Assembly (NCBI RefSeq): GCF_900182545.1
Contig: NZ_FXTJ01000004.1
Span: forward strand, 248,001 to 312,000
Reading direction: 5' to 3'
DNA length: 64,000 bases
Source: Geodermatophilus aquaeductus
GTDB taxonomy: Bacteria; Actinomycetota; Actinomycetes; Mycobacteriales; Geodermatophilaceae
How positions within the stretch are numbered: position 1 is the first letter of the stretch; each line of letters opens with the position of its first letter. This document shows, in pieces, positions 32,119 to 48,144 of the stretch. The translations under genes and the position numbers were made by a program. The notes under the pieces were generated by a model. It was given only the letters and a program-made list of their open reading frames with translations. It had not been told where the DNA came from and searched no databases.

Positions 32119-32164
32119 TCACCTCGGGCGGATGAGGCCCCCGGACGCCCGTCCGGCCGACGAT
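32119..32164 (+). promoter_or_regulatory. MalT-box-like inverted repeat and -10, MFS gene
   Basis: TCACCT-CGGGC-GGATGA at 32119-32135; the right half matches GGA(T/G)GA exactly and the left half is degraded. A 23-nt gap leads to GACGAT at 32159-32164, with ATG 7 nt after its last base. There is no Shine-Dalgarno, so the message is probably leaderless. Confidence 0.5.
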
Positions 32165-32170
32165 GGCCGG

Positions 32171-33772
32171 ATGGCGACCGACCGCGCGGACCCGCCGACT
32201 CCCCCGGCCGCGACGGGGAACACCCTGCTCGCCCTGCTGCTGGCGATGGCGATGTTCGTGCTCGTCGTCGACACCTCGCTGATGAACGTGTCGATCTCGG
32301 CGGTCGTGGAGGACCTCGGCACGACGGTCTCCGGCGTGCAGTCCGCGATCGCGCTCGAGGCGCTGGTGTCCGCGGCGTTCATCCTCATCGGCGGCAAGGT
32401 CGGCGACCTGTTCGGCCGCAGGCGGGCCTACGTGCTGGGCCTGCTGGGCTACGCCGTCGGCGCGGTGGCCATGACGATGGCCCAGAGCCTGGTCGCGATC
32501 ATCGTGTTCTGGGCGGTGGTCGGCGGTCTGGGCGCGTCCCTGCTGCTCCCGGCCATGCAGTCCCTCGTGCACGGCAACTTCGAGGGGCCGGCCCGGACGC
32601 GGGTCTACGCCCTCGTGGGTGCCGCGGCGGCCATCGCCGCGGCGGTCGGCCCGCTGCTCGGCGGCGTCATCACCACGTTCCTGTCCTGGCGGGTCGGCTT
32701 CGCGCTCGAGGCCGTCGTCATCGCCGTCGTGCTCTCGGGCATCCGGCTGGTCCACGACGTGCCCTACACCGGGCCGCGGCAGGTCGACGCCGTCGGTGCC
32801 GTGCTGTCGGTCCTCGCCATGGGCGGCACCGTGCTGAGCATCCTGGTCTGGCAGGAGGGCGGGGAGTCCGTCGCGGCGCTGATGGCGATCGGCCTGGTGG
32901 CGATGGGCGCCCTGGTCTGGTGGCTGCGGCGCCGCAAGCGCTCCGGAGCGTCGACGCTGCTCGACCCCGGGCTGTTCGCGTCCCGGTACTTCCGGCTGGG
33001 CGTCTCCTCCCAGCTGCTCCAGCAGATCGCCCTGGGCGGCACCATGATCGTGCTGCCGCTCTACCTGCAGATGGTGCTGGAGTACGACGCGCTGCAGGCC
33101 GGCCTGTCCATCGCCCCGCTGTCGCTGAGCATGTTCGCCGTCGCGCTGCTGGCCGGCCGGCGAGCGGGCCGGCACCGCCCGTCGACGATCGTCCGCTGGG
33201 GGTTCGGGCTGTTCACCGCCGGGCTGGTGGTCCTGGTCCCGCTCGTGCCGCGGGCCGACTCCGGCTGGTGGCTCCTGCCGCCCCTGCTCGTCGCGGGCTC
33301 GGGACTCGGGCTGCTGGTGTCGCAGCTGAACAACTACACGCTCAGCCCGGTCTCCGACGAGCGGGTCAGCGAGGCCGCCGGGGTGAACTCCGCGGCCGGG
33401 TCCTTCGGGCTGTCCTTCGGGCTGGCCTTCGCCGGCGCGATCATGCTCGCCGCGCTCGCCGTCACCTTCACCACCCGCGCCGACGACAGCGACGTCCTGT
33501 CGCCCGCCGAGCAGCAGCAGGTGGCCGACGTCCTGGAGGACGACGCCCAGCTGCTGAGCACCACCGGACTCGAGGAGCTGCTCGCCGACCAGCCTGCGGC
33601 CACCCGCGAGGAGATCGTCCGCATCAACACCGAGAGCCGGCCGGTGGCGCTGCAGGTGGCCCTGGTGATCCCGATCCTCGCGGGCCTCCTCGGCCTGGCC
33701 ACCTCCTCCCGGATGGCGCGGCTGCCCGATCCCGTCCCGGCGAACACGGCCGAGGGCCTGGCAGCCGGCTGA
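32171..33772 (+). CDS. MFS drug transporter, EmrB/QacA (DHA2) type
   Basis: This 533-aa protein has about 14 helices with the DHA2 motifs: VVDTSLMNVSISAV in TM1, GGKVGDLFGRRRAY after TM2 and GPLLGGVITTFLSWRVGF (motif C region) in TM5. The loop near residues 430-480 is enlarged and faces outward. It should export hydrophobic compounds with proton antiport; the substrate is unknown. It is preceded by a MalT-box-like site at 32119 and seems leaderless, linking it to the neighbouring stress island. Confidence 0.9.
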   Translation: MATDRADPPTPPAATGNTLLALLLAMAMFVLVVDTSLMNVSISAVVEDLGTTVSGVQSAIALEALVSAAFILIGGKVGDLFGRRRAYVLGLLGYAVGAVAMTMAQSLVAIIVFWAVVGGLGASLLLPAMQSLVHGNFEGPARTRVYALVGAAAAIAAAVGPLLGGVITTFLSWRVGFALEAVVIAVVLSGIRLVHDVPYTGPRQVDAVGAVLSVLAMGGTVLSILVWQEGGESVAALMAIGLVAMGALVWWLRRRKRSGASTLLDPGLFASRYFRLGVSSQLLQQIALGGTMIVLPLYLQMVLEYDALQAGLSIAPLSLSMFAVALLAGRRAGRHRPSTIVRWGFGLFTAGLVVLVPLVPRADSGWWLLPPLLVAGSGLGLLVSQLNNYTLSPVSDERVSEAAGVNSAAGSFGLSFGLAFAGAIMLAALAVTFTTRADDSDVLSPAEQQQVADVLEDDAQLLSTTGLEELLADQPAATREEIVRINTESRPVALQVALVIPILAGLLGLATSSRMARLPDPVPANTAEGLAAG

Positions 33773-33783
33773 ACCGCGGCCGG

Positions 33784-33800
33784 GCCGGAGCGGCTCCGGC
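33784..33800. terminator. short palindrome between convergent MFS and HdeD genes
   Basis: GCCGGAGC and GCTCCGGC flank a single G (8-1-8) between two convergent stop codons. It is short for a terminator but the only structure in this 37-bp gap. Confidence 0.4.
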
Positions 33801-33809
33801 GGGCGCGGA

Positions 33810-34397
33810 TCAGCCGGCGCCCGGTCCGGCCGGGCGGGCGCCGGCGGGGTGCCAGAACGCGGCGACCAGCAGCAGCACGCCGAAGGCGGCGATCTGCGCG
33901 CCGAGCACGAGGGAGAGGACGAGCACGGTGGCCTGGGGCCAGACGATCGCGATCACGCCGATGAGCACGTTCACCGCGCCGGCGAGCGCCAGCCACCCCC
34001 AGCCGGGGACCTCGTCGCGGGCGACCACGGCGACGCCGACCCGGGTGGCGCCGTGGGTGATCAGCGTCAGGCCGGTGATCACGGCCAGCGCCACCAGGGT
34101 GATGCCGGGCCACGCGATGGCGAGGACGCCCCCGACGGCCAGGACGGCACCGAGGAGCACCGAGGCCCAGCGCCGGTGCCCGGCGCCGGCCCACCCGAGG
34201 GAGAGCTCCAGCAGCCCGCCGACGACGAAGGAGAGCCCGACCAGCAGGGCCAGGGTGCGCGCCGCGGCGACCGGCGAGAAGAGCAGGACGACGCCCAGCA
34301 CGACGGCGGACAGGCCGAGCAGACCGACGACGACGCGCACGCCGGTGTGCCGGTCCGGGGTGGCCCGCACGTGCTGGCCCGAGACGTTCGCGGTCAT
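33810..34397 (-). CDS. HdeD family acid-resistance-type membrane protein
   Basis: The 195-aa product is an integral membrane protein with six helices in three pairs, the HdeD/DUF308 pattern (GLLGLSAVVLGVVLLFSPVAA, SVLLGAVLAVGGVLAIAWPGIT, AGAVNVLIGVIAIVWPQAT). E. coli HdeD aids acid resistance at high cell density; here the role is likely general stress. ATG 34397 has a GGGAGGAG ribosome-binding site. It is divergent from a small lipoprotein gene and shares with it the inverted-repeat operator at 34460-34476. Confidence 0.9.
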   Translation of the reverse strand: MTANVSGQHVRATPDRHTGVRVVVGLLGLSAVVLGVVLLFSPVAAARTLALLVGLSFVVGGLLELSLGWAGAGHRRWASVLLGAVLAVGGVLAIAWPGITLVALAVITGLTLITHGATRVGVAVVARDEVPGWGWLALAGAVNVLIGVIAIVWPQATVLVLSLVLGAQIAAFGVLLLVAAFWHPAGARPAGPGAG

Positions 34398-34431
34398 GCC
34401 GGCTCCTCCCCGGTCGGGTCCGTGCCGAACG

Positions 34432-34505
34432 ACCCTGTCGCCGTCGGTGCCGGCCGACCTCATCCCCCGGGGATGACGCCCCGACCCGCCGGCGCGCGGC
34501 ACCGT
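34432..34505. promoter_or_regulatory. bidirectional MalT-box-like operator, HdeD and lipoprotein genes
   Basis: The box TCATCC-CCCGG-GGATGA occupies 34460-34476 with both half-sites perfect. To the left, after 22 nt, is CAGGGT (minus strand, 34437-34432) for the HdeD gene. To the right, after 23 nt, is CACCGT (34500-34505), 7 nt before the lipoprotein ATG. One site thus appears to drive both divergent genes. Confidence 0.65.
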
Positions 34506-34511
34506 TCGGGC

Positions 34512-34976
34512 ATGTCGAAGCGCGTGGCCGCGGTGCTGACCCTCGCCGTCGGGGTGGGACTCGCCGCCTGCTCCTCGGGATCGGACTCCGGGACCCCCGC
34601 GGCGAGCACCGCGGCATCGTCCGCCGCATCGTCCGCGGCATCGTCCGGCGGCGCCGAGGTGTGCGACGCCGCCGGCGACCTCCGCACGTCGCTGGCGGCA
34701 CTGGGGGACGTCCCGGTGGTCCAGGAGGGCACCGCCGCGCTCGGGACGGCGTGGACGACGGTCCAGGACGACTGGGGACAGTTCGCCGACGCCGCCCGCG
34801 CCGAGTACGGCGACCAGGTCGAGGGCGTCCAGGCCCAGGCCGACGCCGTCGGGCAGGCCCTCGACGCCGCCCAGGCCGACCCGTCCGCCGGCACGCTGGC
34901 GACCACGGCCACCGCCGTCAGCGCCTTCGTGCAGTCGGCCGGCGGCCTCGTCGACGAGGCCGGCTCCGGCTGCTGA
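34512..34976 (+). CDS. small secreted lipoprotein
   Basis: This 154-aa protein has a signal peptide with lipobox LAAC at about residues 17-20, a Ser/Ala linker with three near-identical ASS-A-ASSAAS units, and a mature helical domain (DLRTSLAALGDVPVVQEGTAALGTAW, TVQDDWGQFADAARAEYGDQVEGVQ). Two cysteines flank the mature domain (GAEVCDAAG and the C-terminal SGC). It should be anchored to the outer leaflet of the membrane. Family unknown. It appears leaderless and under the shared operator at 34460. Confidence 0.8.
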   Translation: MSKRVAAVLTLAVGVGLAACSSGSDSGTPAASTAASSAASSAASSGGAEVCDAAGDLRTSLAALGDVPVVQEGTAALGTAWTTVQDDWGQFADAARAEYGDQVEGVQAQADAVGQALDAAQADPSAGTLATTATAVSAFVQSAGGLVDEAGSGC

Positions 34977-34992
34977 GGAACGCGCGCGTTCT

Positions 34993-35037
34993 TCGTCCGC
35001 ATCGGATGAGGACCGCAGGCGCTCCCTTCCCGAGGGT
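34993..35037 (+). promoter_or_regulatory. MalT-box-like inverted repeat and -10, CMD gene
   Basis: TCGTCC-GCATC-GGATGA at 34993-35009, a 22-nt gap, then GAGGGT at 35032-35037. The predicted start of transcription is about 24 nt before ATG 35069, which has its own AGGAGG. Confidence 0.6.
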
Positions 35038-35068
35038 GGACGCGCAGTCCCCGTCCTCAGGAGGAGCC

Positions 35069-35431
35069 ATGACCCAGACCGCCCCGGACAACGCCCTCGG
35101 CCGCATCGCCCAGGGAGACGCCCCGGTCCTCGAGACCCTGCTGTCGATGAACCTCGACGCGCTGGAGCGTTCGGGCCTCGACGACGAGACCTACCTGCTC
35201 GTCCGGCTGGCCGCCCTGGTGGCGATGGACGCGCCACCGATGTCCTACCTGATCACCCTCGGGGCCGCCGCGGAGACCGGCATGACCGTCGAGCAGGCGC
35301 AGGCGGTCCTGGTCGCGATCGCCCCCGTCGTCGGCAGCGCCCGGGTGACCGCGGCGGCCGGCAACATCCTGCGCGGGGTGATGGGTGCGGCTGCGATCGC
35401 CGACTCGATCCCCGAGCAGCGCTCGCGGTAG
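35069..35431 (+). CDS. carboxymuconolactone decarboxylase (CMD) fold protein
   Basis: The 120-aa product resembles small CMD-family proteins (LSMNLDALERSGLDDETYLLVRLAALVAMDAPPMSY, then TGMTVEQAQAVLVAIAPVVGSARVTAAAGNILRG). The redox CxxC pair of AhpD-type members is absent, so a peroxidase role is unlikely. These cysteine-free forms are common near stress genes in actinobacteria; function unknown. The AGGAGGAG ribosome-binding site is ideal. A very strong terminator follows. Confidence 0.82.
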   Translation: MTQTAPDNALGRIAQGDAPVLETLLSMNLDALERSGLDDETYLLVRLAALVAMDAPPMSYLITLGAAAETGMTVEQAQAVLVAIAPVVGSARVTAAAGNILRGVMGAAAIADSIPEQRSR

Positions 35432-35439
35432 GCCCGGCC

Positions 35440-35491
35440 GCACGGCACCGGTCCTGCTCCGGGGAGTCCCGGGGCAGGACCGGTGCCGTGC
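35440..35491. terminator. perfect 18-bp-stem bidirectional terminator
   Basis: The arms 35440-35457 and 35474-35491 are exact inverse complements (GCACGGCACCGG.. with ..CCGGTGCCGTGC). The 16-nt loop is itself partly paired (CCGGG/CCCGG). It lies between the CMD gene and the convergent PLDc_N/SHOCT gene. Confidence 0.9.
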
Positions 35492-35538
35492 GCTGACGAT
35501 CACGGGGACGACTCCCCCCGGGGACGGAGGGGCCGGGG

Positions 35539-35913
35539 TCAGCTGCGCGCGGACGGGACCAGCTGCTCGTACTCGGCGGGCGTGATGGTCCCCTTCTGCA
35601 GCAGCTCGCGGGCCTTGGCGCCCTGCTGGGCGTCCGCGGCGGCCGCCACCGACCGGATGTGGTCGTCGGTCGCCAGCCGCCGCCGCTCGAGCGCGGCGGC
35701 GGACCGCTCGGCCATCCCGTGGCCCTGCCCCACGAGGTAGGCGAACACCCCGAGCATGGGCAGCACCAGGGTGACGACGACCCAGGCCGTCTTCGCCCAG
35801 CCGCCGATGTCGCGCCGCGAGAACAGGTCCCCGTACACGCGGAACAGCAGCAGGAACCACAGGATCCAGCCGAAGAGGATCAGCGTGGTCCAGAACAGGT
35901 CGAGCAGGGGCAT
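35539..35913 (-). CDS. PLDc_N and SHOCT domain membrane protein
   Basis: This 124-aa protein has two N-terminal helices of the PLDc_N type (FWTTLILFGWILWFLLLFRVY, TAWVVVTLVLPMLGVFAYLV) and a C-terminal SHOCT motif (KARELLQKGTITPAEYEQL). Such proteins are frequent, uncharacterised members of actinobacterial stress islands and may oligomerise through SHOCT. ATG 35913 has a GAGGAGG ribosome-binding site. The operator at 35973 lies 60 bp upstream. Confidence 0.87.
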   Translation of the reverse strand: MPLLDLFWTTLILFGWILWFLLLFRVYGDLFSRRDIGGWAKTAWVVVTLVLPMLGVFAYLVGQGHGMAERSAAALERRRLATDDHIRSVAAAADAQQGAKARELLQKGTITPAEYEQLVPSARS

Positions 35914-35944
35914 GGGTCCTCCTCGGGAGCGGTGGGCTGGCCCG

Positions 35945-35989
35945 ATCGTGGGCGGGACGCCGCCGGGGAGGCTCATCCCGGCGGGATGA
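35945..35989 (-). promoter_or_regulatory. MalT-box-like inverted repeat and -10, PLDc_N/SHOCT gene
   Basis: TCATCC-CGGCG-GGATGA at 35973-35989 with perfect half-sites, a 22-nt gap, then CACGAT on the minus strand at 35950-35945. The spacing to the start codon (60 bp) equals that at the CMD gene. Confidence 0.65.
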
Positions 35990-36025
35990 GGTCGGCGCGA
36001 GCGTGTCCCCCGGGGACCCCGCCGC

Positions 36026-36256
36026 TCAGGGGGCGCCGGGGTCGAGCGGGTCGGGCCCGGCCACGCGGACCTCCAGCAGGTCCAGGCCCAGGCTGCGCAG
36101 TCGTTGCAGCACGCCGTGCAGCCCCGACTGGTCGGTCGCCGCCGTCCGCAGGACGGTCAGGGCCGGTTCCTCGCCGAGGTCCTCGGCGCCGATCTCCTCG
36201 AGCAGGTCGGCCGGGACCGGGCCGCGCACCCGGAGCTCGTACACCTGACGTCCCAT
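36026..36256 (-). CDS. small soluble protein, paralogue of the 37.0-kb gene
   Basis: The 76-aa product is unrecognised. It reads like a small alpha/beta domain: VYELRVRGPVPADLLEEIGAE, a central PALTVLRTAATDQSGLHGVLQRL, and a final strand LDLLEVRVAG. It shares the pattern YELRV...L..VL.RL....(L/V).(L/V)LE(V/I)R with the protein encoded at 37052-37429, so the two are probably paralogues. The ATG has an AGGAGG ribosome-binding site. Function unknown. Confidence 0.7.
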   Translation of the reverse strand: MGRQVYELRVRGPVPADLLEEIGAEDLGEEPALTVLRTAATDQSGLHGVLQRLRSLGLDLLEVRVAGPDPLDPGAP

Positions 36257-36310
36257 CGTGCGCCCTCCTGGTGATCGGTCCGGACCGGCGTTCCGCGGGC
36301 ACCCTCCCCC

Positions 36311-36338
36311 GGGTCGGCTCCGGCCGGAGCCGACCCGG
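36311..36338. terminator. 28-bp perfect palindrome downstream of the DUF7144 gene
   Basis: The arm CGGGTCGGCTCCGG (36311-36324) is followed directly by its exact inverse complement (36325-36338). As RNA it gives a 12-bp stem with a 4-nt loop. It lies 104 bp downstream of the DUF7144 stop and 55 bp upstream of the next minus-strand gene. Confidence 0.6.
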
Positions 36339-36442
36339 CCGGCCAGCGGTCCGCCGACCCTCGCGGGACGACAGGCGTGCTCCGGAGGGTGACCACGAGC
36401 CCCGATGCCGGGGCCGCCGACGGCGGCACCCGGGGGTGGCGC

Positions 36443-36886
36443 TCAGCGGTAGCTCTTGACCTCCCGGCCGTGGACGATGATCGCGAAGATCACGATGACG
36501 TCGATGGTGATCATGATGACCGACCACAGCGGGTAGGCGGAGATGAACACCAGGTTCGCCAGCGCGCTGACCAGGGCGATCCCGACGCCGACGACGCGGG
36601 CGACCATGTTGCCGGCGAGCAGTCCCAGGCCGGCGAGGACGCCGATGACGCCGATCGCGAGGTGGATCCAGCCCCAGGTGTTGTAGTCCACGTCCACCAC
36701 GAGACCGCCCGAGGTGACCGCGTAGAAGCCGTCGTCGAAGAGGGCCACCAGCCCCTCGACGATCTGGAAGGCGCCCAGCGTGATGAGCATGACGCCGGCG
36801 AAGACGACCCAGCCCGCCCAGCCCGACATGGGCTCGCGGTTCGGGACGCCGGTCTCCGTGGGATCGCGGTGCGAGGTGTCCGTCAT
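36443..36886 (-). CDS. DUF7144-type four-helix membrane protein
   Basis: This 147-aa integral membrane protein has four helices (WVVFAGVMLITLGAFQIVEGLVALF, GWIHLAIGVIGVLAGLGLLAG, VVGVGIALVSALANLVFISAYP, VIMITIDVIVIFAIIVHG). The GWIHLAIGV and FISAYPLWSV motifs are typical of the actinobacterial family often annotated DUF7144. Function unknown, commonly found in stress clusters. ATG 36886 is preceded by GGAGG at 8 nt. Confidence 0.85.
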   Translation of the reverse strand: MTDTSHRDPTETGVPNREPMSGWAGWVVFAGVMLITLGAFQIVEGLVALFDDGFYAVTSGGLVVDVDYNTWGWIHLAIGVIGVLAGLGLLAGNMVARVVGVGIALVSALANLVFISAYPLWSVIMITIDVIVIFAIIVHGREVKSYR

Positions 36887-36968
36887 CTGGCTGTCCTCCG
36901 AGGTCCGCCCCCGGCTCCGGCCGTCCCGGGAGGGCGGTCGGGCGGGGGTTCCGATGGCGTGCGACGAC

Positions 36969-37013
36969 AGCGTGGGACCCGGGCCGCGGCGGGGCATCGT
37001 CCGCCCTGCATGA
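36969..37013 (-). promoter_or_regulatory. MalT-box-like inverted repeat and -10, DUF7144 gene
   Basis: TCGTCC-GCCCT-GCATGA at 36997-37013 (one mismatch in one half-site), a 22-nt gap, then CACGCT on the minus strand at 36974-36969. The predicted leader is about 76 nt. Confidence 0.5.
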
Positions 37014-37051
37014 GACGCGGCAGCGGGAGACCGCCGGTGTCGTGCCCGGGC

Positions 37052-37429
37052 TCACCGGGTCCAGGGGCGGGCCGCGCGGGGTCCCCGCGGTGCCGCCCGG
37101 AACGGAACGACGACGCCGTCCCCGCCCGGCGGCGGGTCCCCGGACGTCCCGGGGGACGCGTCCGGTCCCGCGGGCGGGGAGCCGCCGTCCCGGTGCCGTC
37201 CGTCCGGGCACCGGCGGATCTCCAGCACCTGCACGTCGCGCTCGGTCAGCCGGACGAGCACCTCGGCGAGGTCGCGGTCGGCGGGGACCCGCAACCGGTA
37301 CACCGCCCGGCGCGGCACGACGGTGGGCCTGACGGGAACGCGGAAGGTGGACAGCGCCGCGGCGCCCACGTGGGTCCCCACGCGGAGCTCGTACCGGATG
37401 CGCGCCGCTGCCACGTCCTCCGATGCCAC
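37052..37429 (-). CDS. small soluble protein, paralogue of the 36.0-kb gene
   Basis: The 125-aa product has an N-terminal domain RIRYELRVGTHVGAAAL, AVYRLRVPADRDLAEVLVRLTERDVQVLEIRR, similar in pattern to the 76-aa protein at 36026-36256. A disordered Pro/Gly/Asp-rich tail of about 45 residues follows. The alternating strands and one helix suggest an ACT-like fold, but this is a guess. GTG 37429 has GGGAGG 9 nt upstream; GTG 37414 is an alternative. The operator at 37520 lies upstream. Confidence 0.65.
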   Translation of the reverse strand: MASEDVAAARIRYELRVGTHVGAAALSTFRVPVRPTVVPRRAVYRLRVPADRDLAEVLVRLTERDVQVLEIRRCPDGRHRDGGSPPAGPDASPGTSGDPPPGGDGVVVPFRAAPRGPRAARPWTR

Positions 37430-37490
37430 GTCCTCGGACCTCCCTGCCCACGGGCCGGCGGGCGGGGTCCTCCCCGCCAGCTGCGCCCCG

Positions 37491-37536
37491 AGCCTGGAGG
37501 GGAGGACGGGGAGCGCGCCTCCTCCTGCGGGGAGGA
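37491..37536 (-). promoter_or_regulatory. MalT-box-like inverted repeat and -10, 37.4-kb gene
   Basis: TCCTCC-TGCGG-GGAGGA at 37520-37536 with perfect symmetrical half-sites (GGAGGA version), a 23-nt gap, then CAGGCT on the minus strand at 37496-37491. It lies just after the LAL regulator gene, so a contribution to termination cannot be excluded. Confidence 0.5.
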
Positions 37537-37548
37537 GAGCCCGCGGAC

Positions 37549-40221: not shown

Positions 40222-40312
40222 CGGTCACTCCCTGCTGTCGACGGCGCGGACCGGTACCGCTCCCGCCGGCCGCCGGCCGCCGGGACACGCTCCCGCCCGG
40301 AGGCCGCTGACG

Positions 40313-40357
40313 AGCGTCCTCCCGGGAGGACGGCGGCACCCCACCCGTACCGGGTGA
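40313..40357 (-). promoter_or_regulatory. degenerate MalT-box-like site upstream of the LAL gene
   Basis: CCACCC-GTACC-GGGTGA at 40341-40357 keeps the 17-bp length and symmetry but deviates from GGA(T/G)GA. After 22 nt comes GACGCT on the minus strand (40318-40313). It could provide autoregulation. A separate 18-bp palindrome, CGTCCTCCC/GGGAGGACG, overlaps at 40315-40332. Confidence 0.35.
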
Positions 40358-40498
40358 GGGAGGTCCGCAGCCGGCTCCCGCTCGTCCGCCCGGGACGATC
40401 CCGCAGCCGCCGGTGGGCGTCACCCTCGTGGGTCCGGTGCCCCCGGCCGCGGTCCTCGCGGACGGGCTGGAACCGTCCGTCCCCGAGGAGCAGAGACC

Positions 40499-41140
40499 AT
40501 GTCCCGGTCCATCCGCGATGACATCCCGGCGACGCCGGTGCCCGATGAGATGCCCGTCCTGGCTCGCGGCAGGCACCGGACCCCGGCTCAGGGTGCCTGC
40601 TTCATGGAGTACACGGCCCTCCTGGCCGGTGAGCGGTTCACCGACGCGCCGCGCTGCGTCGACGAGGAGCTGGCCGCCGTCCTCCGCGGCGCCAACGACC
40701 GGCTGTCCGACGCCGACCGTCCCCTCCTGGTGCCGCTGCTCGGGCGCGCGATCGGCCTCGGGATCGGGCGGCCGCCGCCGGGCCCGAGGGGCCTGGGACG
40801 CGCCGCGGCCCGCTACCGCCGCGAGGTGGCCGCCCCCTACCAGCGCGCCGCGGCCCGCCTGTGCCGGGACGTGACGCACCGCTTCGTGGCGTCGCTGGGC
40901 GGCCCGCCCCCACGGGCCCCGCGGGCCTGGTCCGGGCGGCGCGGGGAACTCGCGCAGGTGTTCTGGGACTCGATGGGCGAGCCCGCCGCACCGGCGACGT
41001 CCCGGGAGTTCGTCCTGCGGCTGCTCGAGCGGCTGTCGGTCCTGCACGAGTGCTACGAACGGGCCGTGGACGACCTCCGGGCCACCCGCACGGAGGCGGC
41101 CGGTCCCGTGCCGGCCGCCGGGGGCGGGCACGGGACCTGA
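40499..41140 (+). CDS. conserved hypothetical protein divergent from the LAL gene
   Basis: The 213-aa soluble protein belongs to an uncharacterised actinobacterial type with the motif GACFMEYTALLAGERFTDAPRC and ANDRLSDADRPLLVPLLGRAIGL. These are helical and include a conserved Cys pair. The C-terminal half (EFVLRLLERLSVLHECYERAVDDL) is also helical. ATG 40499 has a GAGGAG ribosome-binding site. It starts 277 bp from the LAL gene in the opposite direction and may belong to the same regulatory unit, though I found no good box at the expected distance. Function unknown. Confidence 0.75.
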   Translation: MSRSIRDDIPATPVPDEMPVLARGRHRTPAQGACFMEYTALLAGERFTDAPRCVDEELAAVLRGANDRLSDADRPLLVPLLGRAIGLGIGRPPPGPRGLGRAAARYRREVAAPYQRAAARLCRDVTHRFVASLGGPPPRAPRAWSGRRGELAQVFWDSMGEPAAPATSREFVLRLLERLSVLHECYERAVDDLRATRTEAAGPVPAAGGGHGT

Positions 41141-41165
41141 CGCCGGGCACGGGAGGGGGCACCGC

Positions 41166-41675
41166 TCAGCCGGGGTCGGGCGGCGCGCTCCCCTCCTGCA
41201 GCAGGTGGCGGTCCAGGCGCAGCCGGACGAGCACGCGCCGGAGCGGGGGCGAGGCCCCGTGCAGGGTGATCCGGCGGCCGTGGCGCAGCGTCCGGTGGTA
41301 GGCGGCGAGCAGGCCGCGCAGCCCCGCCTCGTCGATGCCGGTCAGCCCGCTGACGTCGACGGTCCAGCTCGGGTGGGGGGCGCGCAGGATCGCCGAGACG
41401 GCGTCGTGGAGCGCGGAGGTGGCGCGGGCGTCCAGCGGCCCGGTCAGGGTCAGCCGGCCGGTGACCAGGTCGAGGTGCACCACGGACTCCACCGCCCCGG
41501 CGGCGGCTCCGGTCACCGGACGAGGGCGGCCCCGGGACGGGCGCGCGCTCTCCCCCGCTCCCCTGCGGCGGGCCGCCGGGAGGCGGCGCGGTCGGTCCGG
41601 TCCCGGGACGGGGCCCGGCCCGGGACGGACGACGGACGGCCCGGCGGACGTCGTCTCCGCGGGATCGGCTGCCAC
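41166..41675 (-). CDS. STAS domain protein
   Basis: This 169-aa protein has a disordered, Arg/Pro-rich N-terminal 75 residues and a C-terminal STAS domain (VVHLDLVTGRLTLTGPLDARATSALHDAV, TVDVSGLTGIDEAGLRGLLAAYHRTL). In anti-anti-sigma factors the residue after ID is a phosphorylatable Ser/Thr; here it is Glu (IDEAG), which mimics phosphorylation. GTG 41675 follows AGGAGG. It lies next to the SulP transporter gene on the same strand, so it may instead be a free STAS partner of SulP. Confidence 0.82.
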   Translation of the reverse strand: MAADPAETTSAGPSVVRPGPGPVPGPDRPRRLPAARRRGAGESARPSRGRPRPVTGAAAGAVESVVHLDLVTGRLTLTGPLDARATSALHDAVSAILRAPHPSWTVDVSGLTGIDEAGLRGLLAAYHRTLRHGRRITLHGASPPLRRVLVRLRLDRHLLQEGSAPPDPG

Positions 41676-41730
41676 GGTCGTCCCTCCTGCGCTCCGGCGA
41701 GGACGGCCCGGCAGGGCGGGCGCTCGGGGC

Positions 41731-41776
41731 AGCATGGCGCCGACCGCGGCCTGCGCACCTCACCCGTGGTGGGCGA
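41731..41776 (-). promoter_or_regulatory. degenerate MalT-box-like site upstream of the STAS gene
   Basis: TCACCC-GTGGT-GGGCGA at 41760-41776, a 23-nt gap, then CATGCT on the minus strand at 41736-41731. The half-sites are weaker than the best members. Confidence 0.35.
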
Positions 41777-41816
41777 GCGGGCGCAGGGTGCCGCCGGCGG
41801 ACCCGGGCGCCGCGGC

Positions 41817-43589
41817 TCACCCGGGGGGCCGGGGCGGCGGGACCCCCGGAGGAGCGGGACCCTGCGGCGCCGTGGCGGGGACCCGCTCGGTCCACTCCGC
41901 GCCGGTCCGCGCGCGGAAGGTCTCGACGGCGGCCTCGACGGTCGGGAAGAAGTGCCGCGGCTCGATCACGCGGGTCAGCCCGTAGCGCTCGAGCTTGCGC
42001 CGCACCGGGTCCTTGAGCTCGGCGAACACCAGCGCCTGCCCGTGCTCGTCGAGCAGCCGGTCGAGGTCGAGGAGCATGTCGGCCGCCGTGGTGTCGACGT
42101 CGGTGACGGGCTCGGCGGCGACCACGATCCAGTGCGGAGCCGGCTCGCTGCGGGCCAGCGTCCTGATCTCGTCCCGGAACGTCTTGGCGTTGGCGAACAG
42201 CAGCGGCGCGTCGAAGCGGTAGATGACCAGCCCCGGCAGCCGGCGCGCCGCGGGGTAGGAGCGGACGTCGTGGTACCCGGCCACGCCGTCGACCAGCCCG
42301 AGCGTCGTCTGGTACGGCAACCACGCGTGGCGGAAGACGTTGAGGATCGACAGGCCGACCGCGATCGCGATCCCGGGCAGCACGCCGAGCAGCGCGACCC
42401 CGGCCAGCGCGGCGACCGACAGCGCGAACTCGACCTTGCGCTGGCGCCACAGGCGGGCCATCGCCGGCAGGTCGGCCAGTGAGAGCGCGGCGGTGACGAC
42501 CACCGCGGCCAGCGCCGCGTCGGGCAGGTTCCGGAACAGCCCGGGCAGCAGCAGGATCATCAGCAGGATGAGCACCGCACCGGTGACCCCGGTGAGCTGC
42601 GAGCGGGCCCCGGCGCGTTCGGCCACCGCCGTCCGGGACGCGCTGGTGCTGACCGGGAACCCCTGGAAGAGGCCCGCGGCGATGTTGGCCGCACCGATCC
42701 CCGACATCTCCTGGTTGCCCCTGACCTCCTGCCCGGTGCGCTCGGCGAAGGCCGACGCGGTCGAGATGGTGTCCGCCAGGGCGACCAGCGCGATCGCCAG
42801 TGCCCCGCCCACCAGCAGGCCGAGGTCGGACCAGGCGACGCCCGGGAAGGTCAGCGGCGGGAAGCCCTGCGGCAGCTCCCCCACCAGGCCCACCCCGCGG
42901 GAGCCGAGGTCGAACAGCGTCGTGGCGGCGATCGCGAGCACCACCATGACCAGGACGGCGGGCACCTTGGGCAGCCAGCGCTGCAGCACGAGGACCAGCA
43001 CGACGCCGCCGATCCCGACCGTCGCCGCGGCGGGCACGACCTCCCCGTCGGCGACGCCCCGCACGAAGCCGGCGACCTCCTGCAGCAGGCCGTCGGCGTC
43101 GACGGAGAAGCCGAGGAGCTTGGGCAGCTGGCCGATCAGGATGGTGAGCGCGAGCCCGTTGATGTAGCCGACCATCGTGGGCTTGGACAGCAGGTCCGCC
43201 ACGAAGCCGAGCCCGGCCCACGCGGCCACCACCATCACCACGCCCACCAGCAGCGCGAGCATGGAGGCGAGCGCGACCGCCCGCTCGGGGTCGCCGCCGG
43301 CCGCCACCAGGGGCAGCACGGTCGCGGCGATCATCGGCCCGAGCGAGGAGTCCGGCCCCAGCACGAGGATCCTCGAGGGGCCGAACACCGCGTAGGCGAG
43401 CAGGCAGGTGATCGAGGTGTACAGGCCGGTGATCGCCGGCAGGCCGGCCAGCTCCGCGTAGGCCATCCCCTGCGGCACCAGCAGCGCGGTCAGCACCGCA
43501 CCGGCCGCCAGGTCCCTGCCGAGCCAGGACCGGCGGTAGCCGCGCAGCTCCCGGACCCCGGGCGGCAGCACGCGCACGGACCCGCTCAC
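41817..43589 (-). CDS. SulP family anion transporter with STAS domain
   Basis: The 590-aa protein is a SulP/SLC26-type transporter: an N-terminal membrane part of 10-14 helices starting with GRDLAAGAVLTALLVPQGMAYAELAGLPAITGLYTS (sulfate-transporter signature) and a C-terminal STAS domain (GLVIYRFDAPLLFANAKTFRDEI, VTDVDTTAADMLLDL). Transported anion could be sulfate, bicarbonate or another; there is no carbonic anhydrase gene nearby. GTG 43589 has no ribosome-binding site; it overlaps by GTGA the stop of an upstream 15-codon ORF with an excellent one. Its expression is thus probably translationally coupled. Confidence 0.9.
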   Translation of the reverse strand: MSGSVRVLPPGVRELRGYRRSWLGRDLAAGAVLTALLVPQGMAYAELAGLPAITGLYTSITCLLAYAVFGPSRILVLGPDSSLGPMIAATVLPLVAAGGDPERAVALASMLALLVGVVMVVAAWAGLGFVADLLSKPTMVGYINGLALTILIGQLPKLLGFSVDADGLLQEVAGFVRGVADGEVVPAAATVGIGGVVLVLVLQRWLPKVPAVLVMVVLAIAATTLFDLGSRGVGLVGELPQGFPPLTFPGVAWSDLGLLVGGALAIALVALADTISTASAFAERTGQEVRGNQEMSGIGAANIAAGLFQGFPVSTSASRTAVAERAGARSQLTGVTGAVLILLMILLLPGLFRNLPDAALAAVVVTAALSLADLPAMARLWRQRKVEFALSVAALAGVALLGVLPGIAIAVGLSILNVFRHAWLPYQTTLGLVDGVAGYHDVRSYPAARRLPGLVIYRFDAPLLFANAKTFRDEIRTLARSEPAPHWIVVAAEPVTDVDTTAADMLLDLDRLLDEHGQALVFAELKDPVRRKLERYGLTRVIEPRHFFPTVEAAVETFRARTGAEWTERVPATAPQGPAPPGVPPPRPPG

Positions 43590-43633
43590 CGGGGACGGCG
43601 CCGGGCGGGGACCACCGTGGCGGTCGCGGTCAT
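43586..43633 (-). CDS. 15-aa leader ORF coupled to the SulP gene
   Basis: ATG 43633, preceded by GGGAGGAG at a proper distance, opens a 15-codon frame (MTATATVVPARRRPR) that stops with TGA at 43588-43586. This stop overlaps the SulP GTG by the GTGA arrangement. The peptide is rich in Thr/Ala and then Arg/Pro, including Arg-Arg-Arg-Pro-Arg, a run that could slow ribosomes. Alternatively the SulP N-terminus was broken by a frameshift in this strain or in the sequence. Confidence 0.55.
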   Translation of the reverse strand: MTATATVVPARRRPR

Positions 43634-43680
43634 CTCGCGTCTCCTCCCGCCGTCGCCCTCCGGCGCCCTCCGGGCCGCCG

Positions 43681-43725
43681 AGTGTGGCGGCATCCCGGGC
43701 GGGGGTCCTCATCCGCGCCGGATGA
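43681..43725 (-). promoter_or_regulatory. MalT-box-like inverted repeat and -10, SulP gene
   Basis: TCATCC-GCGCC-GGATGA at 43709-43725 with perfect half-sites, a 22-nt gap, then CACACT on the minus strand at 43686-43681. Predicted transcription starts about 41 nt before the leader ATG. Confidence 0.65.
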
Positions 43726-43792
43726 CGGTCCCGGGCGGCCCCGCCGGGGACGCCGTCGGCGGGACCGGCCCGGCCGTCGGGCCGCCGCCGGG

Positions 43793-45499
43793 TCAGCCCG
43801 CGCCGATCAGCTCCCGCAGCCGGACGGTGTCGGCGCCGGTCCAGCCCGGCGGCTGCGCGACCTCCGCCCAGCCGTCCACGTAGTCGGCCCGGTACCGGTG
43901 CCCGTGCCCGTCGGGGACGCCGGTCGAGAACACCATGTCCGCGGTCACCTGCCAGAAGGTGACGAACGGCAGCCACACCGTGCTGCCGGAGACGTCGGGT
44001 CCCCGGTCGCCCTCCAGCCAGTCCGGGCGGCCCAGGAGCAGCCGCGGCGACCACCACACGATCGGGTCGGAGGCGTTCTGCAGGTAGACGACCCGCGGAT
44101 CGTCCCAGGGACCCGGCGGGGCGCCGAGGTCCGGGGCCTCGTCGGCGAAGCGCACCGTCCGGCCGTCCTCGTACACCGGCAGCCACTCCGGCGAGCCGGG
44201 CTCCCGGTCGGCGACCAGCCCCCTCCACAGCTCGTTGACGTTGGGCGGCCCCGCCCAGAGCACGCCGTCCGTGCGGTTCTCCACGTCCGCCAGCCCGCTG
44301 AAGGCGGCCTCCCCGCCGAAGGTGCCGAGGCTCTCGCCGAAGACGTGGAGCTGTGGCCGACTGCGCTCGGGCAGCTGCGCCCAGGCGCCGTAGACCGCGT
44401 CGAAGAGGGCGCGGCCGGCATCGCGCGCCTTCACCTGGTCGACCAGGAAGGACAGCCAGCTCGGCAGGTAGGAGTACTGCATCGCCACCATCGCGGTGTC
44501 GCCGCCGAACTCGTACTCCAGGGAGTCGCTGGCCGCCGGGTCGACCCAGCCGGTGCCGGTCGTCGTCACCACCACGAGGACGGCGCGGTCGAAGCCGCCG
44601 GCCCGCTGCAGCTCGAGGACGGCGAGGGCGGCGCGGTCCCGCACGTCGTCGGCCGAAGCCAGCCCGACGTAGGCGCGGACGGGCTCCCGGGCCGGCCGGC
44701 CCGAGAAGGCGGCGAGCTCCCGCGGCGTCGGCCCGGTGCCGGTGAAGTTGCGGCCCTGCAGGCCGAGGTCCGCCCAGGGCACGAGGGAGTCCGGGCTCCC
44801 CGACCGCTCGGGTGCGGTGGGCTGCGTCGCCCCCTCCTCGGTTCCGTCGTCCTTGACGCTGAACGCGGAGTTCATCGCCTCGACCAGGCCCTGGAACAGC
44901 ACGCCGTTGAGCAGGAAGACCACGAGCACGGTCACGGCGGCGACCCCGAGCGGGCGGGCGACGCGCCGCGGCAGGAGCCGGCCCAGGGCCCGCACGAGCC
45001 AGCGTGCGAGCACCCGGATCCCGCGGCCGACGGCGACCAGCGCCACGAGGACCGGGACCGCCACGACGACGACGCCGATCGACGACCAGCCCTCCGGCGG
45101 GTCCAGGCCCATGAGCTCGTGGACCTCCCGCTGCCAGCCCGCGCCCAGCCACAGCGCGGCCAGGCAGAGCAGGGGGCCCGCCACGGCGAGCACCTGCCAG
45201 GCCCGTCGGCGGACCCCGGCCCGGACACGGCCCTCGGTGGCCTCGGCGACGAACCAGGCGACGGTGACGCCGAGGCCGTAGCCGATGGCCGCGGTGATGC
45301 CGGTGATCAGGCCCTGCAGCACCCAGCCCCGCGGCAGCAGGGAGGGGGTGAGCGCGCTGCAGCCCAGCAGCAGGGCACCCACCGTGCCGCTCCAGGTGTA
45401 GCGGGGCAGCCACCGGCGCCACCGGCCGGAGCGCGCCGGTCGCGTCCGCTCCGGCTCCGGCGCGGCCGGTGCGGGCCTCGCCGTCGGTTCCGCCGTCAT
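43793..45499 (-). CDS. membrane-bound alpha/beta-hydrolase (Abhydrolase_9 type)
   Basis: The 568-aa protein has an N-terminal membrane part of about five helices (GTVGALLLGCSALTPSLLPRGWVLQGLITG, GYGLGVTVAWFVAEATEGR, GVVVVAVPVLVALVAVGRG) matching Abhydrolase_9_N, and a C-terminal catalytic part (VRAYVGLASADDVRDRAALAV, QLHVFGESLGTFGGEAAFSG with GESLG as nucleophile elbow, YLQNASDPIVWW with the acid). The substrate is unknown; a lipid or envelope ester is plausible. It is divergent from a paralogue at 45604, with which it shares an operator. Confidence 0.87.
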   Translation of the reverse strand: MTAEPTARPAPAAPEPERTRPARSGRWRRWLPRYTWSGTVGALLLGCSALTPSLLPRGWVLQGLITGITAAIGYGLGVTVAWFVAEATEGRVRAGVRRRAWQVLAVAGPLLCLAALWLGAGWQREVHELMGLDPPEGWSSIGVVVVAVPVLVALVAVGRGIRVLARWLVRALGRLLPRRVARPLGVAAVTVLVVFLLNGVLFQGLVEAMNSAFSVKDDGTEEGATQPTAPERSGSPDSLVPWADLGLQGRNFTGTGPTPRELAAFSGRPAREPVRAYVGLASADDVRDRAALAVLELQRAGGFDRAVLVVVTTTGTGWVDPAASDSLEYEFGGDTAMVAMQYSYLPSWLSFLVDQVKARDAGRALFDAVYGAWAQLPERSRPQLHVFGESLGTFGGEAAFSGLADVENRTDGVLWAGPPNVNELWRGLVADREPGSPEWLPVYEDGRTVRFADEAPDLGAPPGPWDDPRVVYLQNASDPIVWWSPRLLLGRPDWLEGDRGPDVSGSTVWLPFVTFWQVTADMVFSTGVPDGHGHRYRADYVDGWAEVAQPPGWTGADTVRLRELIGAG

Positions 45500-45524
45500 G
45501 TCGTGCTCCGCTCGTCGGGGCCGG

Positions 45525-45597
45525 ACGCTAGGAGCCGTCCGGGGCACCCGACTCGTACCGGGAGGATGAACCGCGGCCGCCGGGAGCGGCCCACCAT
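45525..45597. promoter_or_regulatory. bidirectional MalT-box-like operator between the two Abhydrolase_9 genes
   Basis: TCGTAC-CGGGA-GGATGA at 45553-45569. On the minus strand, after 22 nt, lies TAGCGT (45530-45525), a true TANNNT. On the plus strand, after 22 nt, lies CACCAT (45592-45597), 7 nt before ATG 45604. Confidence 0.6.
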
Positions 45598-45603
45598 GCG
45601 GGC

Positions 45604-47589
45604 ATGCGACGCACAGGACCCCGTCCGGGACGGTCGAGCGAGCGACGGCCGCACGGCGCCGGTACCGCGCCCGACGTCGGGCTGGTCGTGGCCGCCGCGA
45701 TGGCACCCGGCACGTTCGCCCCGTCGCTGTCCCCCCGCAGCGCGGTGGACCAGGGCGTGGTGACCGGCCTGGCCACGGGCCTGCACTACCTGCTCTCCGC
45801 CGGGACGCAGGACGTGCTGGAGTCCACCGCGCGGTTGCTCGCGGGGAGGACGTCGACGGCGTCGACGCGGCGCACCGCCACGATCGCGGTCGACTGCGCG
45901 GCCGTCCCGATCGGGCTGGCGCTGCTCCGGGCCTTCCCGCCCCGGGCCGAGGACCCGCTCCGCGGAGCCGTGCGGCAGGCGGCCTGGCGGCTCGGCGGCA
46001 CGGGCCTCGGCAGCGCGCTGCTCGGCGGGGCCGGCACCGGTGCGCGGCTGCTCGACGACCGGCTGGGGCTGCAGGGGCGCCTCGCCGCCGTCCCGCTGGC
46101 GGTGCCCGTCGGCCTGGGGACCGCCTACGTCCTGGACCGGCTGCGCGCCGGGGAGCAGGCGGAGGACACCGGCGGGGCCGGGGCTCCGCCGCCGCTGACG
46201 TCGATGGGCGTCGCGGCCGGCGTCGTCGGCTGCCTGAGCGGCGTCGCCTACGGGGAGCACGCCCTGACCGGGCTCGCCGCCCGCCGGCTGGCCGCCGCGC
46301 TGCCCGGGCCGGCCGGCCTCTGGCGACTGGCCGGGCACGCGGGTGTCCTCGCGGCGCTGGGGGCCGGCGTGTCGGCGGTCTGGCACCGGGCGATGCGGCG
46401 GATCGAGGCGCGGACGTCGGCCGACGTCCCCGTGATCGAGCCCGACGAGGCCGAGCGGTGGGTGCCGGCGACGGTGAGTGGCGGCCCCGGCAGCCTCGTG
46501 TCCTGGGCGGGGATGGGCCGGGACGGGCGGCTGCACGCCCTGGCCACGGTCCGCCCGCGCCCGCTCCCGTCCCTCCCGGCCGGCGTGCCGGACCTGTCGG
46601 TCGAGACCGTGATGGGCACGCCCGCGCGCGCCACGCCCGTGCAGGTGTACGTCGGGCTGGACAACGCGCCCACCGCCCGCGCGCGGGTGGACCTGGCGAT
46701 GGCCGAGCTGGAGCGGACCGGTGCCCTCGACCGGTCGCTGCTGGTCCTGGTCTCGCCCACCGGGACCGGCTACGTCAACTACGTCGCCGTCGCCGCGCTG
46801 CAGTACCTCGCGCTCGGCGACGTCGCCACGGTGACCCTGCAGTACTCGCGGCGCCCCTCGCCCCTGTCGCTCGGCATGGTCGCCGGGGCCCGCGAGCAGA
46901 ACCGGCTGCTGTGGCTGCGGATCCTGCAGCGCCTCCGCGACCGCTCGGGCCCCCGGCCGCGCGTCGTGCTCTTCGGAGAGAGCCTCGGGGCGCACACCAG
47001 CCAGGACGTGTTCCTGCACTGGGGGACGCTCGGTCCCGACGCGATGGGCATCGACCGCGCGCTGTGGATCGGGACGCCCTACGGCAGCGGGTGGATGCGC
47101 CAGGTCACCCGCGGGGAGCGGCCCGACGTCGACCCCGACGCCGTCGCCCTGGTGAACGACCACGCCCAGTACGCCGCCCTCGCCGCGGAGCGCGCCCGTC
47201 CGCCGCGCTTCGTCCTGGTCAGCCACGACAACGACGGCGTGACCAAGTTCGGCCAGGACCTGCTGTGGTACCGCCCCGACTGGCTGGGCCCGTCCCGGCC
47301 CCGCCACGAGCCGGACCCCGCCGGGAGCCCGCGCGGCATCCCCCCGGCGATGCGGTGGCGCCCGCTGACGACGTTCTTCCAGAGCCTCGTCGACATGAAG
47401 AACGCCCAGACGTCCGGACCGTTCGGCGCCTACCAGCACGACTACCGCGCGGACCTGCCCCGCTTCCTCTCCGACGTCTTCGAGCTGCCCGCGTCCGAGG
47501 AACAGCTCGTCCGGATCGAGGAGGTCCTGCAGGTCCGCGAGAGCGTGCGCGAGCGGCTGTTCGCCGTCGTCCCGGGGGCGGTCGCCTGA
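45604..47589 (+). CDS. membrane-bound alpha/beta-hydrolase (Abhydrolase_9 type, paralogue)
   Basis: The 661-aa protein repeats the layout of its divergent neighbour: a hydrophobic N-terminal half (VVAAAMAPGTFAPSLSPRS, AVPLAVPVGLGTAYVLDRL, GVAAGVVGCLSGVAYGEHAL) and a catalytic half with VYVGLDNAPTARARVDLAMAEL, VVLFGESLGAHTSQD (elbow GESLG) and SHDNDGVTKFGQDLLWYRPDWL. The pattern YVGL-x-(A/N)...TGTG.V is shared by both paralogues. Apparently leaderless under the shared operator at 45553. Substrate unknown. Confidence 0.87.
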   Translation: MRRTGPRPGRSSERRPHGAGTAPDVGLVVAAAMAPGTFAPSLSPRSAVDQGVVTGLATGLHYLLSAGTQDVLESTARLLAGRTSTASTRRTATIAVDCAAVPIGLALLRAFPPRAEDPLRGAVRQAAWRLGGTGLGSALLGGAGTGARLLDDRLGLQGRLAAVPLAVPVGLGTAYVLDRLRAGEQAEDTGGAGAPPPLTSMGVAAGVVGCLSGVAYGEHALTGLAARRLAAALPGPAGLWRLAGHAGVLAALGAGVSAVWHRAMRRIEARTSADVPVIEPDEAERWVPATVSGGPGSLVSWAGMGRDGRLHALATVRPRPLPSLPAGVPDLSVETVMGTPARATPVQVYVGLDNAPTARARVDLAMAELERTGALDRSLLVLVSPTGTGYVNYVAVAALQYLALGDVATVTLQYSRRPSPLSLGMVAGAREQNRLLWLRILQRLRDRSGPRPRVVLFGESLGAHTSQDVFLHWGTLGPDAMGIDRALWIGTPYGSGWMRQVTRGERPDVDPDAVALVNDHAQYAALAAERARPPRFVLVSHDNDGVTKFGQDLLWYRPDWLGPSRPRHEPDPAGSPRGIPPAMRWRPLTTFFQSLVDMKNAQTSGPFGAYQHDYRADLPRFLSDVFELPASEEQLVRIEEVLQVRESVRERLFAVVPGAVA

Positions 47590-47600
47590 CCGGTCGCACC

Positions 47601-47645
47601 TCCTCCTCCCCGGAGGGTGTCCCGCGGGGCCCGCCCGGGGAGGCT
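47601..47645 (+). promoter_or_regulatory. MalT-box-like inverted repeat and -10, 47.6-kb membrane gene
   Basis: TCCTCC-TCCCC-GGAGGG at 47601-47617, a 22-nt gap, then GAGGCT at 47640-47645, 8 nt before ATG 47653. The start codon lacks a ribosome-binding site in the usual place, so a leaderless message is likely. Confidence 0.5.
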
Positions 47646-47652: not shown

Positions 47653-48144
47653 ATGCGGACGGGTCTGGAAGCGCACCTCGGGTCGCGGCAGGTCGGCAGG
47701 GTGGTCTACGGCTCGATCATCGGGCTGGCGCTGGTCGTGGCGATCGAGAGCCATCCTCCGCGGCCGGGCGTCATGGCCGTGTGGCTGGCCGGGACGGCGC
47801 TGGCGGTGGCCCTGGCCGAGGTGTACAGCGAGGTCGTGGGGGTCGAGACGAGGACGCGGCACCAGGTCACCCGTGCCCAGGTCGGGCACATGGCGGAGGA
47901 CGCCGTGGCGGTGGGGGTCGGCGTCGCCTTCCCCGCCGTGTTCTTCCTGCTCTCCGCGCTCGGGGTGCTCGAGGTGGACACCGCGTTCACCGTCGCGAAG
48001 TGGTCGGGGTTGGGCCTGATCGGCTTCTACGGGTACTGGGCGGCCCGCTTCTCCGGCGCGACGCCCCTCGGCTCGCTGGTCAAGGGCGCGCTCGTCGCGC
48101 TCATCGGCGCCGGGCTCATCCTCCTGAAGTCGCTCGTGCACTGA
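47653..48144 (+). CDS. hypothetical four-helix membrane protein
   Basis: The 163-aa product has helices at VVYGSIIGLALVVAIES, GVMAVWLAGTALAVALAEV, AVAVGVGVAFPAVFFLLSAL, and LGLIGFYGYWAARF/GALVALIGAGLILLKSL. A conserved-looking EVYSEVVGVETRTRH stretch follows helix 2. I do not recognise the family with confidence; it resembles uncharacterised actinobacterial proteins that occur near stress genes. It follows the Abhydrolase_9 paralogue on the same strand but has its own operator-like site. Confidence 0.75.
   Translation: MRTGLEAHLGSRQVGRVVYGSIIGLALVVAIESHPPRPGVMAVWLAGTALAVALAEVYSEVVGVETRTRHQVTRAQVGHMAEDAVAVGVGVAFPAVFFLLSALGVLEVDTAFTVAKWSGLGLIGFYGYWAARFSGATPLGSLVKGALVALIGAGLILLKSLVH

Follow-up and report, generated by a model that had tools for sequence, protein, structure and literature searches.

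Large ATP-binding regulators of the LuxR family (LAL regulators) are numerous in actinobacteria, and for many of them the targets are unknown. In Actinoplanes sp. SE50/110, the inverted repeat TCATCC-N5-GGATGA is reported at 17 mapped transcription starts, 34.4 ± 1.0 nt upstream, and the 51-gene MalT-activated large genomic region (MRLGR) depends on the MalT-like LAL ACSP50_3915, whose deletion lowers 42 of the 51 genes and whose overexpression raises 39 (Droste et al. 2020; PMC7567727). The motif was also described there for four other Micromonosporaceae; the terms EMSA, electrophoretic mobility, footprint and DNA affinity are absent from the main text of that paper. The sites of MalT, the maltose activator of enterobacteria such as Escherichia coli, are described as direct repeats (PMC6099782). 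Here we analyze a 64-kb stretch of the Geodermatophilus aquaeductus genome (the window; C4:248001-312000 of a 5.43-Mb genome, 99.97% complete), in which a gene for a MalT-like LAL lies among 17-bp inverted repeats (boxes) of the Actinoplanes type, present in many promoters of one region.

Twelve boxes form 14 directed predicted promoters within ~15 kb, with the LAL gene encoded among them (Table 1). All 11 boxes named by the first-pass annotation of this DNA, and all 13 of its hexamers at a gap of 22 or 23 nt, were found at their positions; its count of up to 13 promoters rises to 14 with a further box, 40382 (+), followed by CACCCT. Boxes, spacing, clustering and the link to LAL genes are observed directly. 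The excess of boxes, the fixed gap, the presence of two LAL clusters in the genome, the split within the family, the association with LAL genes, the strand bias and the genetics of Actinoplanes together point to a cluster of promoters under the control of one MalT-like LAL, which probably also regulates its own gene. We hold this to be likely, with the window LAL the best candidate to drive the window boxes and the LALs of the second cluster the best candidates to drive that cluster.

The pattern TCNTCC-N5-GGANGA occurs six times in the window, against a mean of 0.10 and a maximum of 1 in 100 dinucleotide shuffles, an enrichment on which the first-pass annotation had made its proposal depend. 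The whole genome holds 12 exact copies, six of them inside ~9 kb (window 34.4-43.7 kb), and all three copies of the strict form TCATCC-N5-GGATGA are within the window. Spacing was assessed in the window and in nine further regions of eight relatives, ten in all and taken for their LAL genes except G033C70, taken for a box; boxes were selected blind to hexamers and gaps of 0-69 nt considered. As that annotation anticipated, NANNNT recurs at a gap of 22 or 23 nt: 54 of the 98 exact boxes, each orientation counted, have it there, the 68 other gaps totaling 61 with at most 4 each. Oriented boxes with one mismatch behave alike (79 of 186; every other gap ≤7). A hexamer is present on at least one side of 45 of 49 exact and 68 of 93 one-mismatch boxes, and on both sides of 9 and 11, respectively. 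This fixed distance places the box over the −35 position relative to the predicted starts.

The spacer within the dyad measures 5 bp. In 1.42 Mb of family loci, TCAYCC-Nk-GGRTGA was counted 94 times at k = 5 and 0-5 times at each other k (0-12), and in 0.38 Mb from other families 56 times at k = 5 and 0-1 times at other k, these loci having been retrieved for LALs or boxes. Orientation of 133 promoters by their hexamer gives the logo TC(A/G)TCC-G-N4-GG(A/G)(T/G/C)GA-(G/T)-G, followed by (C/G)ANNNT. The outer G is kept on the −10 side only (0.83 at the second flanking position), so that the near half-site corresponds to the full MalT-type GGA(T/G)GAGG. ATG lies 6 or 7 nt past the hexamer in 19 of the 133 promoters, and ATG or GTG lies at or adjoining the predicted +1 in 28 of 148; part of the regulon therefore looks leaderless. 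Among 183 boxes with a single direction, the nearest downstream gene is on the same strand in 139, on the opposite strand in 19 and not called in 25. Boxes fall inside called coding sequence in 71 of 211 cases, in regions with a coding share of 75% (called starts are over-extended).

A promoter model using sequence alone was trained on 121 promoters, all of them from relatives and none from this genome, with score cut-offs of 13 to 20 set after a simulated null. It gave 84 matches in the window (E value up to 1), the top 18 of which all lie at 32.1-47.7 kb. Genome-wide, 21 of its 23 matches with an E value up to 0.0015 fall in two LAL clusters: 10 in that of the window (C4:280-292 kb) and 11 at C4:90-134 kb, ~145-200 kb away, where three further LAL genes are encoded. 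The surroundings of this second, larger cluster (C4:84000-143999, L077-L079), in which 19 box-led proteins were scanned, carry the same promoter type with mostly GGGTGA half-sites. One of the two outliers, the lone match C7:9732 (L080:9733), precedes a gene whose product resembles, by eye, that of window gene 47653.

Across 112 genomes of the family, 12 have 19-37 matches, one has 8, 25 have 1-4 and 74 have none. Training promoters came from eight of the 12 box-rich genomes; G000, G087, G092 and G108 supplied none and yet have 23, 22, 24 and 19 matches. Every one of the nine genomes with a LAL that shares at least 50% identity with the window LAL is among the 12, and the remaining three have LALs of the second-cluster type. 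Beyond the family, 37 of another 295 genomes of the class contain a match at an E value of 0.0005, and 14 of 20 genomes from one further family have 2-13 matches at 0.005. Up to 52 candidates per genome were scored in the 112-genome scan, up to 19 in the 295-genome scan and up to 8 in the search for LALs at least 50% identical.

The N-terminal module of the window LAL matches the solved structure of E. coli MalT (8bob; E value 1.2e-38), with 28.8% identity to MalT over 386 columns. It is not MalT proper, scoring 244 bits on the NCBIfam MalT model against a cut-off of 537. Upstream of E. coli malP (L142, E. coli K-12), GGATGAGG is followed after 22 nt, counted by eye, by CAAACT. These likenesses favor the earlier proposal of a local regulon under a MalT-like LAL activator with predicted MalT-type half-sites near −35; the first-pass annotation, working from the letters alone, picked out a real regulon, and its inference of the mechanism was good. 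Its appeal to MalT-like recognition residues carries little weight. At 26 compared positions, the window LAL has 11 in common with MalT, two second-cluster LALs have 15 and 13, and a LAL with no box nearby has 12; as proof, this similarity was rejected as nonspecific.

The association of boxes with LAL genes was surveyed over 56 LAL rows, with surroundings limited to 6 kb or the end of the stretch and a helix-turn-helix (HTH) similarity score of at least 100, a filter that excludes the third LAL of the second cluster. All six LALs with HT(K/R)-, HSK- or YTR-type helices lack a box, and 47 of the other 50 have at least one (exceptions G026C7, G053C10 and G111), although this is not an unbiased proportion because nine other-family rows and some others were retrieved via box matches. 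In the set chosen by LAL match, G006, G023, G054 and G078 have three or four directed matches of at least 13 bits each, G086 has one of 18.8, and G042, G048 and G111 have no directed match of at least 13 bits; for G023, G048, G054 and G078, at least one match somewhere in the genome had already been seen in the 112-genome scan.

Several observations weigh against this regulon model. LALs G026C7 and G053C10 have the same helix and no box nearby. Similar helices occur in three or more further LALs of the genome, one of which could read the boxes instead, and three of the nine TCAYCC-N5-GGRTGA sites of the genome lie outside both clusters. Boxes with two mismatches show no clear excess (46 versus 39.9 in shuffled sequence; 16 of 100 shuffles reach 46); the weak members are therefore supported by −10 spacing and the relatives' model, not by the box alone.

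The two clusters of this genome differ in box class. At position 13, A:G is 10:2 in the window (class A, GGATGA) and 2:19 in the second cluster (class B, GGGTGA; Fisher test, 4e-5). The identification of the window LAL as the activator is affected by this: the LAL gene does lie within the set, as the first-pass annotation said, but given a second cluster with three LALs and a box one base different, it may not be the only reader. The window boxes could be read mainly by a second-cluster LAL, or by all LALs alike, with the window LAL minor or redundant. The half-sites of the two classes are one base apart, the boxes of the LAL gene itself (40341) and of the STAS gene (41760) are class B-like, and G087, G092 and G108 have 19-24 promoter matches without a class A-type LAL; the Actinoplanes region has two LALs, and loss of the second reportedly has only slight effects (PMC7567727). 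Nevertheless, the class difference between clusters of one genome, and the clustering of boxes around the LAL gene in the nine genomes whose LAL shares 50% identity or more with that of the window, make this reading unlikely.

A regulator of another kind is less probable still. BldM group I sites, for which the footprinted consensus TCACcCgnncGgGTGA is given in PMC4125116, have the class B half-site, and the boxes might be read by a BldM-like orphan response regulator. Their dyad is, however, 16 bp long with a 4-bp spacer, which the window boxes do not have, and at k = 4 the counts are 2 versus 94 in family loci and 0 versus 56 in other families. All five TCAYCC-N4-GGRTGA sites of the genome, with the spacer of BldM group I (C1:871115, C2:187995, C2:425988, C3:474727 and C13:35709), lie outside both clusters, and box abundance tracks LAL genes, so that we give this reading very little credence. 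Chance in a G+C-rich genome, with palindromes expected and hexamers chosen by eye, is rejected for the strong set and practically negligible: the two-mismatch boxes and the looseness of NANNNT would suit it, but not the exact-box excess, the fixed gap, the clustering in genome and family, or the count of four directed matches at or above the cut-off of 19 in 275 kb of control sequence (window flanks and surroundings of box-poor LALs).

The preferred reading remains regulation of each cluster by the LALs encoded in it. When clusters were grouped by the LAL type inside, A:G was 84:46 over nine clusters with a window-type LAL and 23:83 over seven with a second-cluster-type LAL, a comparison that omits 16 regions (G058C45, G033C150, G033C70, G107x, G109c, G108b, G108C10, G087a, G087c, G092C5, G089, G085, G023, G006, G054 and G078). 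In four genomes of another family (G162, G208, G307 and G325), the boxes above the cut-off that lie beside a LAL with the helix NTVKTHLKAIYRKF are all within one mismatch of TCACCC-N5-GGGTGA, although the model that found them had been trained on window-type clusters. On a LAL tree of 54 rows (leaving out G117_14086, cut by the end of the contig stretch, and G107_67504, a poor match), the state "no box" needs 2 changes versus a shuffled mean of 8.6, and class G needs 11 versus 18.2, with none of 500 shuffles as low. Class A is scattered, with 11 changes versus 12.7 and 66 of 500 shuffles as low.

A strict code from LAL to box is not supported. Class A boxes (3:0 each) stand in G006, G023 and G054 beside LALs whose helix resembles that of class B (HVRA-IY/LY), G108a is mixed (A:G 10:11), and the window-type LAL of G028 at 18068 has one A and five G within 6 kb; with the scatter of class A on the tree, box class follows LAL type only as a tendency. 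We propose, tentatively, that paralogous actinobacterial LALs read near-identical dyads in which each half-site differs chiefly at a single base pair, that one genome can thereby keep two neighboring regulons apart and that the promoter of the window LAL, with the half-site of the other class, may be part of a cascade. Given these counterexamples, the proposal seems somewhat more apt to fail than to hold, and both base-specific reading and a cascade between classes are hypotheses.

In G033, G107, G053 and G109, the LAL gene is preceded by a box with GGGTGA facing the LAL and GGATGA facing away (rows L033:18697, L039:18169, L043:15738 and L055:12740). Boxes with GGGTGA or GGGTGG towards the LAL (40341 and those of the four relatives) may reflect a link from the other box class.

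Most likely, to judge from these sequences, one ATP-dependent activator switches the clustered promoters on together. By analogy with MalT, the LAL, an ATPase with a LuxR-type HTH, would be active as a multimer when bound to ATP and probably to a ligand. Two of its DNA-binding domains would occupy the dyad TC(A/G)TCC-N5-GGA(T/G)GA, and the near half-site, extended to GGATGAGG, would overlap the −35 position and allow the LAL to bring RNA polymerase to weak −10 hexamers of the form (C/G)ANNNT, which lie at a constant distance of 22 or 23 bp. The symmetry of the core means that a single box can work for a pair of divergent promoters. The window LAL would most likely drive the mostly class A boxes of the window, and the LALs encoded in the second cluster the mostly class B boxes there; direct binding, the ligand and this assignment we infer. 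The hexamers may be used by an alternative sigma factor. We read them as probable weak, activator-dependent −10 elements because their first base is T in 6% of the 133 promoters, whereas among 36 NANNNT hexamers at the leaderless offsets of 580 other genes, 12 have T (1.5 expected).

The predicted promoters are listed in Table 1. All 11 that score at least 20 have a correctly oriented downstream gene. Those at 45553 (both directions) and 47601 score below 20, and their genes start, as read from the sequence, at 45604 (+), 45499 (−) and 47653 (+). Apparent gene starts lie at or adjoining the predicted +1 at 32171, 34512 and 45604, and one base further at 47653. Two divergent Abhydrolase_9 genes have one box in common, flanked by a hexamer on each side. 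No Rfam match at gathering score was found at 30.0-49.0 kb of the window, and a structured RNA is not supported there.

Table 1. Predicted promoters of the window and the LAL gene among them (window positions)
Feature	Position	Strand	Box	Hexamer	Gene and remarks
Promoter	32119..32164	+	32119-32135 (TCACCTCGGGCGGATGA)	GACGAT 32159-32164	MFS transporter gene (MFS_1), probable leaderless start 32171
Promoter	34460..34505	+	34460-34476 (TCATCCCCCGGGGATGA)	CACCGT 34500-34505	Small lipoprotein-like gene, probable leaderless start 34512
Divergent promoter	34432..34476	−	34460-34476	CAGGGT 34432-34437	DUF308 (HdeD-like) gene 33813-34397
Promoter	34993..35037	+	34993-35009	GAGGGT 35032-35037	CMD-family gene 35069-35428
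Promoter	35945..35989	−	35973-35989	CACGAT 35945-35950	PLDc_N/SHOCT membrane protein gene 35542-35913 (Pfam)
Promoter	36969..37013	−	36997-37013	CACGCT 36969-36974	DUF7144 membrane protein gene 36446-36886
Promoter	37491..37536	−	37520-37536	CAGGCT 37491-37496	Small protein gene 37055-37429, no Pfam match
LAL regulator gene, 890 aa	37549..40221	−			AAA (STAND-type) module and C-terminal LuxR-type HTH; Pfam AAA_16, GerE; proposed activator
Promoter of the LAL gene	40313..40357	−	40341-40357 (half-site GGGTGG, class B-like)	GACGCT 40313-40318	LAL gene; 85-nt leader
Promoter, added to the earlier list	40382..40426	+	40382-40398	CACCCT 40421-40426	Gap 22; gene 40499-41137, no Pfam match
Promoter	41731..41776	−	41760-41776 (half-site GGGTGA, class B-like)	CATGCT 41731-41736	STAS-domain gene 41169-41675
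Promoter	43681..43725	−	43709-43725	CACACT 43681-43686	SulP-STAS transporter gene, start 43634 or 43589
Promoter	45553..45597	+	45553-45569	CACCAT 45592-45597	Abhydrolase_9 gene 45604-47586, probable leaderless start 45604
Divergent promoter	45525..45569	−	45553-45569	TAGCGT 45525-45530	Abhydrolase_9 gene 43796-45499
Promoter	47601..47645	+	47601-47617	GAGGCT 47640-47645	Membrane protein gene, start 47653

Among 127 box-led proteins of either class in the clusters of nine genomes, the most frequent families are SHOCT (17), DUF7144 (12), PLDc_N (11) and CMD (9), followed by STAS (7), GH15/trehalase-like (6), DUF308 (6), DUF6325 (6), SulP (4), LAL (4), ion channel (4) and DUF1269 (3), counted among the 25 of 38 families listed; a LAL gene is box led in the window also. 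The second cluster of the genome (19 proteins) likewise has DUF1269, DUF7144, DUF308, GH15, MFS and ion channel proteins and adds a PiT-type phosphate transporter, a sulfatase, a MIP channel and a Na/H exchanger. Small membrane proteins, SulP/STAS, DUF308, CMD and trehalase-like GH15 proteins suggest a stress or slow-growth program rather than sugar catabolism, and there are no maltose genes among the box-led genes of the window. The six GH15/trehalase-like proteins may hint at a glucose oligosaccharide or trehalose as the ligand.

A sequence-only promoter model recovers candidate targets of one LAL group across these genomes. Two box classes in one genome provide a testable hypothesis of one-base specificity for paralogous activators and are, as far as our searches go, new. 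Relative to the Actinoplanes case, the additions are a map across genome and family, a half-site extended on one side only, boxes flanked by hexamers in both directions and a second class of box. In the literature searched, which took in the LAL paper PMC9628970 and few subscription journals, we found neither an account of the system in Geodermatophilaceae nor one of GGGTGA boxes linked to LALs.

BldM group I sites of Streptomyces share the TCACCC/GGGTGA dyad and a LuxR/NarL-type HTH with class B, but BldM is a response regulator with a 4-bp spacer in its sites (PMC4125116), whereas the present system has a LAL and a 5-bp spacer. The MalT regulon of E. coli and Klebsiella has in common with the window the MalT-like N-terminal module and the half-site GGA(T/G)GAGG, which the logo of the 133 promoters shows with its flanking GG on the −10 side. 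In malP, judged by eye from sequence, a NANNNT hexamer stands 22 nt past GGATGA, as in the window; malP has no 5-bp-spaced dyad, its closest inverted half-site lying 17 bp off. Half-site and hexamer distance look alike in malP and the window promoters despite a different half-site arrangement, the direct repeats of MalT (PMC6099782) contrasting with the 5-bp-spaced dyad, and MalT's maltose genes being absent from the box-led genes here.

The closest likeness is to MRLGR of Actinoplanes. The first-pass annotation knew of no description of such a system, a view that does not stand, since motif, geometry and regulator class are all described in PMC7567727. The dyad TCATCC-N5-GGATGA is identical, many promoters surround one or more MalT-like LAL genes in both, and starts that lie 34.4 ± 1.0 nt beyond the end of the box in Actinoplanes compare with a predicted 22 or 23 plus 6 plus about 6-7 nt here. 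Maltose catabolic genes are noted neither for MRLGR nor for the window. Actinoplanes belongs to the Micromonosporaceae, and its region has an arginine deiminase pathway and amino acid genes, whereas the window has SHOCT, DUF7144, DUF308, CMD, STAS/SulP and Abhydrolase_9 genes; unlike MRLGR, the G. aquaeductus system is accompanied by a second cluster with GGGTGA boxes. The window system is another member, in another family and with other cargo, of the Actinoplanes type of LAL regulon.

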